The notes beneath the pieces are model-generated. The model saw only the letters and a program-made list of their open reading frames with translations, had not been told where the DNA came from and did not search any database. Position numbers and translations under genes: made by a program. A stretch of 64,000 bases of DNA from Bacteroidota bacterium (lineage in GTDB: Bacteria; Bacteroidota; Bacteroidia; M30B66): assembly GCA_027490225.1 (NCBI GenBank), contig JAIXYK010000044.1, positions 1-64,000 of the forward strand, given 5' to 3'. This document shows positions 19,467 to 58,340 of this stretch, piece by piece; position 1 is the first letter of the stretch; each line of letters begins with the position of its first letter.

Positions 19467-19892
19467 TTAATGATCACCACTTTTAATTTTCATATAATTA
19501 TCAGGCGTCATTACAGCTAGCAAATTGTTTTTAAAGTCTTTTGTATTTCGAGTTATTATCACATCTATTTCTTTATCTAATTCTGCAGAATAATTCTGTA
19601 AAGCATCTTCAAAATCCTTAAAATCTGAATTCAGAGCTTGAAGTACTGCATCTTTATCGATAATCAATATTTCAGTAATTGAAACTAATTGTTTTAATTT
19701 CTCTATTACCTTTAGATGTGTAGCAGTTTGCCTAAGTAAATAGTATACATTACTTATTATTACTGGCGTTACAAAACCTTTTATTTCCTTCGATTCACAT
19801 AAAGAAAGAATCTTCGCTGCATTCTCGGCAAAAGGCTGCCTGTCAAAAAAGAAATCAAGAATTATATCAGTATCAATTAAAATTCTTGTCAT
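19467..19892 (-). CDS. PIN-domain toxin (VapC-like)
   Basis: A 141-residue PIN-domain protein. The first acidic residue is in RILIDTDIILDFFFDRQPF, an internal glutamate is in AENAAKILSLCES, and later acidic residues are in DFKDFEDALQNYSAELD and VDVIITRNTKDF-like text (IDVIITRNTKDF). This spacing is that of PIN ribonucleases of the VapC type, which cut RNA and stop growth when freed from their antitoxin. It starts three bases after the stop of a small DNA-binding-type gene, the usual antitoxin-toxin order. Confidence in the pair is high; RNA target unknown. Confidence 0.88.
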   Translation of the reverse strand: MTRILIDTDIILDFFFDRQPFAENAAKILSLCESKEIKGFVTPVIISNVYYLLRQTATHLKVIEKLKQLVSITEILIIDKDAVLQALNSDFKDFEDALQNYSAELDKEIDVIITRNTKDFKNNLLAVMTPDNYMKIKSGDH

Positions 19893-19895
19893 TGA

Positions 19896-20144
19896 TTATA
19901 GATATTTTCTAGATAAACGACTAGTCAATTCTTTTTTATAATCAAAATCCTTAGGCGCTGTAAAAGAACCTTTTAAAGATTTTACAATAGGAGTTAATTC
20001 TATTTCATTTGAATTATCATCTTTCGTAAGAACCTTTAAATAATTTTCTATTAAGCTTGATAAACTGCGCTCTTTATCTTTTGCATATTTTTTTGCTTTT
20101 TCAATAACAGTTTGTTCAATTGTCAAAGTTAACTTCGTGTTCAT
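19896..20144 (-). CDS. antitoxin of PIN toxin, DUF6364 family
   Basis: An 82-residue protein, MNTKLTLTIEQTVIEKAKKY followed by AKDKERSLSSLIENYLKVLT, which is the short beta strand plus two helices of a ribbon-helix-helix-like DUF6364 protein. Such proteins bind DNA through the strand and neutralise the toxin with their C-terminal tail, here about residues 45-82. The toxin gene follows after three bases. Self-regulation is usual for this class; a pair of CACGTG palindromes lies 42-71 bases upstream of the start and could be the operator. Confidence 0.85.
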   Translation of the reverse strand: MNTKLTLTIEQTVIEKAKKYAKDKERSLSSLIENYLKVLTKDDNSNEIELTPIVKSLKGSFTAPKDFDYKKELTSRLSRKYL

Positions 20145-20249: not shown

Positions 20250-21290
20250 TCAAATTACCGAGTAATTTGTTCCAGCTCCAGAACCATGTTTTTCAATTAA
20301 ATTCATTTTAACAATTGCTGTTAAAAGCCTTTTCACTGTTGGATTTGGAATGTTCAATTTCTCAGAAATTTCACCTGATTTACATCCTGCATGATTTTCA
20401 ATATAAGCAATAATTGATCTTTCTTTGGGCGACAATTTAGCTTGATGCTCATTTAATGCTAATTTTTTCAAAAGTTTAGTCTGAATATTCATGATTGCAT
20501 CGAAGAAAAATGTGATCCATTCTGTAACATTTTCATTTGGTCTTTGTGCTTGACAATTTCTCAGAATGCGATAGTACTCTAGTTTTCTTAATTCAATTTC
20601 ATGCTCCAAACTAATGTATTGAATCCAATTATATCCACCTTTCAATAACAGTAAAATAGAAATCAGCCTGCTAAGTCTCCCATTTCCATCTTGAAAAGGA
20701 TGAATACTAAGAAATTCATAAGTAAATAAGGCATATTTTACTAGCGGATGTGTTTCATCTTCTTTATTATACCAGGCTACAAGATTTCTCATTGCGTCTT
20801 GGGTTTGAAATCCTGCAGGAGTAGTTTCGAAAATAATTTGTTTTGCTCCATCTGCATAATTTGCCTCAACAGAATTATTCTGCTTTTTGTACTCTCCTTT
20901 ATGCCATTCATCTTTCTTACTAAATCGCATTAAGATATTGTGGAGATGCTTTATACTACTTTCAGAGATGTTGATTTCAGCATATGATTCCGAAATAGTA
21001 TCAAACGTTTCGAAATAGCCAACTACTTCCTGCGAATCTCTGTCTTCTAGCTTAGTTATATCAATATTCTTCAAAAGCATGTCAACTGCTTCATCTGATA
21101 GTTTTGACCCTTCAATTCTCGTAGAAGAACCAACGCTATTCACTGTTGCAATAAATTTTAATTGTTTAAGACTTTGTCCCTCACGTCTTTCTATTGATGT
21201 CCATGATGCATCAAAACGGTCTATCTTGCTAAGTAAACCTATTAACTTCCAATCAACATCAATTTTGAAATTGTAAACACTGTTATTCAT
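20250..21290 (-). CDS. Fic family protein (class II, N-terminal inhibitory motif)
   Basis: A 346-residue Fic protein. The core HPFQDGNGRLSR is at about residues 197-208, with catalytic H197 and the phosphate-binding GNGR, so AMP transfer to a protein target is expected. The inhibitory motif SxxxEG is at residues 56-61 (STRIEG), which makes it a class II Fic kept inactive by its own N-terminal helix. A C-terminal winged helix (about 285-346: SPKERSIIAYIENHAGCKSG) suggests DNA binding. The ATG at 21290 is chosen because the frame further upstream only translates a short-period repeat array. Target and trigger are unknown; toxin-like or regulatory use are both possible. Confidence 0.9.
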   Translation of the reverse strand: MNNSVYNFKIDVDWKLIGLLSKIDRFDASWTSIERREGQSLKQLKFIATVNSVGSSTRIEGSKLSDEAVDMLLKNIDITKLEDRDSQEVVGYFETFDTISESYAEINISESSIKHLHNILMRFSKKDEWHKGEYKKQNNSVEANYADGAKQIIFETTPAGFQTQDAMRNLVAWYNKEDETHPLVKYALFTYEFLSIHPFQDGNGRLSRLISILLLLKGGYNWIQYISLEHEIELRKLEYYRILRNCQAQRPNENVTEWITFFFDAIMNIQTKLLKKLALNEHQAKLSPKERSIIAYIENHAGCKSGEISEKLNIPNPTVKRLLTAIVKMNLIEKHGSGAGTNYSVI

Positions 21291-21310
21291 TTTGCAAATA
21301 TATAAAACAG

Positions 21311-21446
21311 AATAATACGAAATGATACGATTTAATACGAAATGATACGATATAATACGAAATAACACGAAATTGATATGATACGATTTAATACGATTTA
21401 ATACGAAATTGGTACGATACGAAATGATACGATTTAATACGAAATT
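21311..21446. repeat. 10-bp-period TACGA array upstream of fic
   Basis: Twelve TACGA and one CACGA boxes occur in about 136 bp, most at 10-base steps, with linkers AAATGA, TTTAA and AAATT. The array ends about 20 bases upstream of the Fic ATG and about 126 bases from the thiolase ATG. One box per helical turn puts all boxes on one DNA face, as expected for a protein that binds cooperatively. Repeats are direct with no unique spacers, so it is not CRISPR. Confidence 0.8.
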
Positions 21447-40169: not shown

Positions 40170-43100
40170 TTACCTTAACAATGTTATTGAACCATACTTT
40201 TCATAGTCCTTTTGAAAGGTATCTTTTGCAGTAATCAAATAAAAATAAACGCCATCTGGAGACATTCTGCCATTTGTTCTTCCATCCCATCCATTATTCG
40301 CCCCTTTCCACTGAAAAATCTGTTCTCCCCATCTATTAAAAATTAATCCTTCTAACTCTGCAATTCCATAAGTTACAGCCTTAAACGTATCATTCTTTGA
40401 ATCTCCGTTAGGTGTAAAACTATTAGGAACCAATAATTCTACAAAGTCTGAAATAGATTTTATAGTTCGAGTGATGCTATCCCTGCAGCCTTCTGCGCTA
40501 ATTACCAATTGCTGTACTTCGTATTCTCCTGCTTCAAAAACCCTGTCAGCACCTGAAATAATATTTACCAACTCACCATTTATTGTCCAAATTATCTGGT
40601 CACCATTTACACTTTCATCGGTAATGCTTGATGTTAAAGGTGCAGATCCTGTTAATGGACTTGCCGTGAAATCTGCATTTACACTTCCGTTTGAAATATT
40701 AACTGAAGCAACATCTGTATTACATGCTCCAGTAACAGTTAAAGTATAAGTTCCCGATTGAGAAACTTCTATAGAAGGTGTTGTTGCGAGCGTAGACCAA
40801 GCATTATTTGTAAGTGAACTTGAAGTAAGTGTTATACTTTGATTATCGCAAATTACTAAGTTACCATTGGGAGTAATCTGCGCAATTACCAAAGCTCCTT
40901 GTTGTATTTGCACGTTTGCTGCTAGACTTCTGCATGTTGCTACTTCTGCAATAACAAAATAGCTGGTAACACTTCCATCTACTGTTTGGAAGCTAGCTCC
41001 AGTGCCTAGTTGATTAGTTAAAGCTGCATCAGCATACCAGATAAAATTACCTGCTACTCCTGAGGCTGTTAGTACTGGCAATGCTCCATTACAGTATTCT
41101 ACAATAGGCGTAACTGTAGGAGCTGCTGGCAAAGCAATAAAGGTAACTGTTACACTAGAAGCACTGCTTTCACAACCTGCAACTTCTTGAACAGCATAAT
41201 ACGTTTGTGTTTGATTGTTTATTGGAGCAATGCTAGTTCCTGTGCCAAACTGATTGTTTAAGTTTACATCTGTAAACCAAGTAACTAAAGCATTTACTTC
41301 TCCTGAAGCAGTTAAATTAAGCGGTATTTCGCCTGTACAGTAGTTCCCTCCACCGTTCAGCACAAGTGCGGATGGAACAGGGTTTACATCAATATTTTGC
41401 TGATTATTTGCAGAACAAGTTCCACTTCCTACTGTATAGGTAATTTGTATGCTACCATTTAAGCCATTTGGCGAAAATGTATTTCCTGAAACACCATTTC
41501 CTGACCAAGTACCACCAGCGCTTCCAGTTATAAGACTATTTAAATCTAAAGGAGATTGGTTCTGACAAAAAGCTGCAGGAGCTGTCCAGCTTGCACTTGG
41601 CGCATCAATTACATTAATTGTTCTAACTTCAATGTCGGAGCAAGCTCCAGATCCTAAAGTATAAGTTACTGTTACGTTTCCTAACAAACCTGCTGGTGAA
41701 AACAAGTTCCCTGTGACTCCCGTTCCGGACCAAATTCCGCCTAAATCTCCAGTAATTAAAGCATTCAAATTAACTGCTGCATCACTACTGCATATTGAAG
41801 GTGAACTGAAATTCCAACTTGCGTTTGGAGCTGAAACTACGTTAATATTTTGAGTTAAGAGTGCTGCACAAGTTCCATTTCCAACCGAATAGGTAACAGG
41901 AATATTTCCCAACAAACCAGTTGAATTAAACACAGTTCCTGTAACTCCTTGACCTGACCAAACACCACCTGTGGTTCCAGTTAACAAAGTATTCAAATCT
42001 GCAATATTGTTTCCAACGCAAACAGGAGGAGGAATTGTCCAGGTTGCGTTAGGTGCATTAATTACATTTATTGTTCTAACTTGAGTATCAGAACATGTTC
42101 CGCTACCTATTGTATAAGTAACCGAAATATTTCCAGATAAACCAATTGGTGAAAATGAATTGCCAGTAACTCCAGAGCCGGACCAAACTCCTCCCAGATT
42201 TCCTGTAACTAATAAGTTCAAATTAACAGCCGCGTCACCGCTGCAAATCGTAGGTGAACTAAAATTCCAACTTGCATTTGGAGCTGATATTACATTTATA
42301 TTTTGTGTTAGCTGAGCTGCACAAGTTCCATTCCCAACAGAATAAGTAACTGGAATATCGCCTAATAAGCCAGTTGAATTAAATACAGTTCCTGTAACAC
42401 CTTGACCTGACCAAACGCCACCTGTAGTTCCTGTTAACAAAGTATTTAAATCGGCAATATTGTTTCCAACACAAATAGCAGGAGGAATTGTCCAGGTTGC
42501 TGTTCCACCAATGTTTATAGTTATGAATTTTTCTTCTTCGACAGAACAATTTGCACTACCAACAGTATAGTTAACAGCAATATTTCCAGATAATCCTGCT
42601 GGAGAAAAGGTATTGCCCGTAACTCCTTGTCCAGACCATGTTCCTCCTGGAGTTCCTGTTATTAAAGTATTTAAGTTTATTGGTGCATCGCCCTGGCATA
42701 AAGGCTGAGGTTGTGTCCAAGCCGCAGATAAAGGAGTAATAGGAACATTACAGCCATAATTAGTGTAAGAAGCTGTATTTGAAAATGTGTATTCAACTGT
42801 TGCTCCGTTTCCTCCTGGCAATAAAGACCTGTCATAGCTTACAGCATCATTACAATTACCCCCTGGAGATGTAAAACTCATAGAGAAATTTCTAATTCCT
42901 GTTCCAACATTTGCAAAATTTCCACTTGTTGAATTTCCACAATGAAAAATCATATAAAGTGTATCCGAAAGACCTGCAAATGAAGCTGCTGCAGGATCAA
43001 AGTTAATCCCAGAAACGAGTATTACTTTCTTATTTGCAGGTAAAATACCATTCACCGGCTCTCTTACAAATCCACAAGCTACTATTGTACTATTCAATTG

Positions 43101-57807: not shown

Positions 57808-58340
57808 ATTTATATTAAATGGTATTTTTTGTTTGCTATTCCTAATTATAGCAAAGAGCTCAAAGCGGTCACTGAGCTTGCCGAAGTGAGGTTGTTGCAC
57901 AGAGAACACTGAGGTTTTTGCTGAGTTGATTTCGTAATGCTTTTTTCCAATTCCTTTTTTTAACATGGAGATCACTGAGGTTGTGGCACAGAGAACACTG
58001 AGGTTTTTGCTGAGTTGATTTCGTAATGCTTTTTTCCAATTCCTTTTTTAACACGGAGATCACAGAGGTTGTGGCACAGAGTTCACGGAGTTTTTTCTGT
58101 TAAATTTTTTATATTCAATTAACTTTTGCTATTTGTAGATTTATCTATAACTAAGTATCAAACGCTAAGTTTTTTTGTGCTATAAATCAGCAGAAAACAC
58201 TAAGAATCAATTCTCTGTGATCTCAGTGCAACAACCTCAGTGTGCTCTGTGCCATTTCATCTGCAGCAAATAAATAAAAACTCTGAGAACTCCTTACAAA
58301 AACCTCCGTGGCCTTCAATCATCCGCAACAAACATCTATT
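57808..58340. repeat. convergent spacer with 41-nt composites and an 89-nt tandem duplication
   Basis: No real gene is present. Two adjacent copies of an 88-89-nt unit lie at 57891-57979 and 57980-58067 with about four differences, and a partial third copy starts at 58068. On the minus strand the composites, two CTCnGTGnn units, ACAAC, two more units, occur at 57962-58002 and 58050-58090; the plus-strand composite is at 58213-58253. The opposed copies flank an AT-rich stretch (58091-58200). The region lies between convergent argS and the WG-repeat gene, like the composite at 8903-8943. Confidence 0.8.

Follow-up and report, generated by a model that had tools for sequence, protein, structure and literature searches.

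This locus raises the question of what reads a row of thirteen short boxes standing directly upstream of a fic gene, and what the gene gains from it. In the window, by which we mean the whole 64,000-nucleotide stretch of Bacteroidota DNA that was analyzed, the boxes (12 TACGA and one CACGA, all on the plus strand) fill a 136-bp stretch at 21311-21446, and no box in the opposite orientation was found within it. From the fic ATG it is 21 bp to the edge of the array and 26 bp to the first box, which agrees with the preliminary description of thirteen boxes ending about 20 bases from the Fic start. The array has 12 TACGA in 136 bp, whereas 200 dinucleotide-shuffled versions of the window never had more than 3 in any stretch of that length. 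Searching the 3.77-Mb genome for TACGA-N5-TACGA-N5-TACGA gave five overlapping matches, all within the array, and a search for TACGA pairs found one further isolated pair outside it. The array is a single dedicated site of its kind in this genome.

On the fic strand, which is the functional one, the unit is TCGTATYANW; the complementary TACGA covers only part of what is conserved. The candidate operator array (21311..21446, minus strand) consists of the thirteen clear boxes and one degenerate box near 21377, shows a 36-bp higher-order repeat, and falls into three blocks. The gene-proximal block (21316..21370, minus strand) has six boxes at exact 10-bp steps, with TACGA starting at 21316, 21326, 21336, 21346, and 21356 and CACGA at 21366. 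The middle block (21377..21417, minus strand), half a turn off the first, begins with the degenerate box and continues with TACGA at 21382, 21392, 21402, and 21413, and the distal block (21418..21442, minus strand), with TACGA at 21418, 21428, and 21438, is half a turn out of phase again. Between the thirteen clear boxes the steps are 10, 10, 10, 10, 10, 16, 10, 10, 11, 5, 10, and 10 bp. Offsets of 5 bp close to 21377/21382 and 21413/21418 rotate each block by roughly half a turn relative to the one before, so that the earlier statement that the boxes share one DNA face is correct within blocks, but not across these two half-turn breaks.

The fic gene (20250..21290, minus strand, ATG at 21290) encodes a class II, SoFic-like protein of 346 aa, as judged by its motifs and the SoFic profile. 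The class II inhibitory motif STRIEG (residues 56-61, pattern [ST]xxxE[GN]) and the Fic motif HPFQDGNGRLSR (residues 197-208, pattern HxFx[DE]GNGRxxR) are made up of residues nearly all of which are invariant or conserved to 90% or more in family alignment A1. The PADLOC SoFic model PDLC03963 matches the window Fic with E=4.2e-48 over profile positions 57-344 of 361, and the matches of sampled relatives likewise cover most of this profile. By sequence, then, this is probably a SoFic-like phage-defense enzyme, with a presumed AMP-transferring role in defense. The protein ends in a winged helix (residues 286-346; 20253..20435, minus strand), supported by Pfam PF13412 at residues 287-333 and by an AlphaFold2 model. 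The model and covariation mark residues 316-328 as the recognition helix (20307..20345, minus strand), with P317, K320, R321, and L322; AlphaFold2 places residues 317-322 inside this helix with a mean pLDDT of 87.

Across the loci, no neighboring gene of at least 60 aa was found conserved beside fic, so the layout is stand-alone and single-gene. Nor is a small downstream ORF of the AS1 kind conserved across the family, as judged by ORF conservation rather than by AS1 sequence. In the window, fic is followed immediately, on its own strand, by a DUF6364 and PIN-domain pair (VapBC-like toxin-antitoxin; 19467-20144), and a PIN gene likewise adjoins fic on an Agrobacterium plasmid (L074). Two other roles for the array were considered and rejected. 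A TTG-started frame of 468 aa crosses it and might make it coding sequence, but M1 of the 346-aa protein is at least 90% conserved, and in relatives such as L033 the open frame is no longer than 346 aa. The array might also be the operator of the divergent thiolase gene (21573, plus strand), but relatives have no conserved neighbor.

Bacteroidota genomes, one IMG/VR contig, and plasmids yielded homologues of 35-82% identity, and the upstream regions of these have the same direct-repeat layout, with 10/11-bp steps, just 5' of the start. Among 50 dereplicated fic upstream regions, identical 5-mers recur at lags of 10, 11, 20, 21, and 31 bp in 54-80% of loci, compared to 10-14% for control upstreams taken from other ORFs of the same loci. 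When 130-bp upstreams were tested against shuffles with a cut-off of 0.01, phased repeats were significant in 25/30 diverged members of the family, versus 0/24 members of other Fic families and 4/62 control upstreams. Similar boxes, judged by eye, are found in Proteobacteria and Cyanobacteria plasmids. The phased direct-repeat array is a family trait of stand-alone class II SoFic-type Fic proteins, and the earlier proposal that it is a regulatory element gains from these sequence comparisons. The conserved module has four boxes with steps of 11, 10, and 10 bp, and often comes as two quartets at a distance of ~55 bp, some of their boxes being eroded. Four loci (L048, L113, L114, L111) share a common frame of 0, 21, 31, 55, 66, 76, and 86 and differ in which boxes are missing, and L121 has three quartets. 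The 13-box array in the window is an enlarged four-box module, with its quartets packed closer to give the 36-bp repeat.

In these genomes, the genes of other Fic families have inverted repeats upstream instead, as judged by eye. Their palindromic sites include TTTGATAGTATCAAATGATAGTATCAA (L092, L095, L089) and ATATCGGAT..ATCCGATAT (L082, L108, L110), and the type of operator may thus be particular to each Fic family. A phage-borne relative at 30% identity (L139) also appears by eye to have an inverted repeat. Same-family homologues are only ~60% identical to the window Fic, compared to 82% for an Algoriphagus homologue, which suggests that fic has traveled horizontally, probably together with its operator. 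On the Agrobacterium plasmids (L074, L133-L137) the annotated fic start codon lies inside the second box module, and the true start is probably a downstream ATG. Family members on rhizobial plasmids (L075, L138, and others) are annotated as "DUF977 family protein", a name that probably derives from the winged helix alone. A distant Fic relative is found near the integrase of a temperate phage, Brochothrix phage BL3 (gp26, gp27; L140), and is followed by a small gene of ~52 codons, which recalls the Sofic-AS1 pair.

Although the layout recurs, the spelling of the boxes differs by clade. On the fic strand most units share the grammar YGKNTNW, with some exceptions (CGAACCA, TAGCTCA). The window form is CGTATYA, and the clade units are CGTATCA, CGGATAT, CGTATAT, CGAACCA, TGGCTCA, TGGATAT, TGGGTGT, TGGATGA, CGGGTAT, and TGGCTAT. 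The sixth base of the unit goes with residues 321 and 322 of the recognition helix: R321 with C6 in 21 loci, K321 with A6 in 14, H322 with G6 in 8, and R322 with A6 in 5. Four loci are exceptions, with K321 and C6 in L036, L118, and the mixed-box L047, and T6 in L146. In an unbiased scan of all protein columns, R321 ranked top for unit base 6 by normalized mutual information. It was also first of 296 columns by a tree-aware likelihood ratio (25.2; first of 290 in an earlier run), using a tree built from the catalytic part of Fic. A small residue (A/S) at 317 goes with C at base 4, with a likelihood ratio of 18.3, again first of 296, the next column scoring 10.8; the {A,S} class was picked after looking at the data, yet it was applied to all columns. 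Joint switches between tree neighbors were seen in L122 (KR, C) versus L120 (KK, A), in L132 (KR, C) versus its KK, A neighbors, and in L050 (KK, A) beside a KR, C clade. As few independent switches lie behind the likelihood ratios, more weight should be given to the ranking than to p-values. H322 goes with G6 without exception (8/8); that it comes no higher than fifth among the columns for base 6 = G is due to its being largely confined to one clade. In the column tests for base 3, for which the scan was incomplete, no helix residue came out on top. A minority of units were set by hand, including those of L074, L040, L042, and the plasmid loci L143-L151; the automatic unit of L132, AGCTCAT, was out of register and was reset to TAGCTCA after the covariation had been noticed. 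Since the letters of the boxes covary with the recognition helix of the Fic protein across the family, Fic itself is most likely the reader of its own array, as the preliminary description had suggested for its winged helix.

The position of the array gives an indication of what reading it might do. At 21295..21302 (minus strand), 12 bp before the ATG, is the sequence TATATTTG, a probable Bacteroidota -7 promoter element, which would give fic a nearly leaderless mRNA. The -7 motif TAnnTTTG was found in 49/82 Bacteroidota family loci, of which 30/49 have it 12-13 bp ahead of the ATG, and boxes overlap it in 13 loci; in the two-box clade, a box abuts a TATAAT-like element. We are fairly confident, from the sequence comparisons, that the array serves as the operator of fic and would be read by the C-terminal winged helix of head-to-tail Fic monomers, in a negative feedback. 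Each ~10-bp unit (YGKNTNW) would be the half-site of one monomer, and neighboring monomers, spaced by a single turn of the helix, would occupy modules of roughly four boxes (11, 10, 10). With the array over or just upstream of the -7 element, bound Fic would shut off fic transcription, and the feedback would hold a toxic SoFic-like AMP-transferring enzyme at a low level. A protein bound at the -7 element should stand in the way of RNA polymerase, which makes autorepression the simplest interpretation. The gene-proximal box of the window array does not reach the -7 element, and repression by simple overlap is thus less evident than in L121 or L113. Binding, cooperativity, and the sign of the control are inferred, with CccR and BldC as precedents for autorepression through head-to-tail binding as the likely mechanism.

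Other explanations have to be weighed against this one. A separate regulator could bind the array, but the box letters follow the recognition-helix residues of Fic across lineages and no regulator gene is conserved beside fic, so we regard this as very improbable. Intrinsic curvature, or an upstream promoter element with no specific reader, would fit the AT-rich stretches phased at 10 bp. However, the conserved part is a G/C-bearing core that changes with the recognition helix, and the phasing is absent from other Fic families and from neighboring genes, making this explanation extremely improbable. If Fic is the reader, DNA-bound oligomers might mainly set the activity of the enzyme, as a store or a switch, with transcription control secondary. 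Binding of DNA through the wHTH stimulates AMPylation by CbFic2 (PMC10628234), and a contact between the CTD and the AMPylase domain controls EcSofic toxicity (PMC12249575). But the arrays sit at the fic promoter, often over the -7/-10 element, and many relatives have two boxes only, few for a store, and we consider this reading unlikely. Bolder, and in our opinion also unlikely, is the idea that a family of defense AMP-transferases found in several phyla forms polymers on private arrays of phased boxes, each at the enzyme's own promoter and under an evolving residue-to-base code, with the gene silenced and the enzyme restrained until an infecting phage strips or copies the DNA.

The array could also be a simple repeat prone to slippage, with phase variation of fic expression as the result, as had been proposed for this locus. 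Copy number does change, from 2 to 13 boxes between species, with many relatives having two only. The window array has its 36-bp higher-order repeat, and that of its nearest relative (L006) has four boxes. But the frame is constant among close relatives (L034/L035, L006/L007, L123/L124, L126-L128, and the two-box clade). It is also constant in the Agrobacterium plasmid arrays, which extend into the annotated start codon, and the two A. fabrum arrays compared (n=2) are identical. E. coli strains searched for the same comparison gave no DNA match. Variation between species stands, but these comparisons between relatives do not support phase variation by slippage, which we consider quite improbable.

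Compared with known systems, autorepression by Fic would have precedent, but not on this kind of site. CccR of Yersinia pseudotuberculosis, like the window Fic a class II Fic with a C-terminal HTH (a winged helix in the window Fic), represses its own promoter through this domain, but its site is one inverted repeat, AGATAATCAT-N26-ATGATAATCT (PMC9755527). In the window family the boxes are present in several copies, all as direct repeats in helical phase, and their spelling depends on the clade. An operator of the CccR type, an inverted repeat with a long spacer, was rejected for the window fic, as all boxes have one orientation. The CccR dimer reads an inverted repeat and class II Fics of this build dimerize through the N-terminus, which is harder to reconcile with strictly direct repeats. 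CbFic2 of Coxiella burnetii (8CIL), among the closest folds to the window Fic, is a Fic protein with a C-terminal wHTH that binds DNA, but its binding was tested with random DNA only (PMC10628234), while the window family has a concrete predicted site. EcSofic, of the SoFic family (PDLC03963), is likewise a stand-alone class II Fic, but has the small antitoxin AS1 downstream, and no conserved small downstream gene of this kind was seen in the window family; the parts of the EcSofic paper searched (PMC12249575) contain no operator. On the DNA side the closest likeness is to BldC of Streptomyces, whose winged-helix monomers bind direct repeats in variable number cooperatively and head to tail, the repeat number setting the oligomer (PMC6428758); RdfS is a further oligomeric analogue. 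BldC, however, is a MerR-like regulator with no enzyme domain and many targets (PMC6428758), while the window Fic has one predicted target.

DNA binding by SoFic was unproven as of PMC10628234, and although many solved Fic structures include a DNA-binding domain, few of its sites are known from the open-access literature. The arrays provide a concrete predicted DNA target and candidate specificity-determining residues for a widespread enzyme family, and suggest how a self-contained toxic defense enzyme may be kept low without a partner. The matched pairs of reader and box are also a natural series for studying how winged-helix specificity changes. Elsewhere in the window we noted two tandem repeats, one of 89 bp at 57888-58096 (2.4 copies, 93% matches) and one of 453 bp at 41565-42626 (~2.3 copies), the latter possibly part of a gene for a repeat-domain protein.
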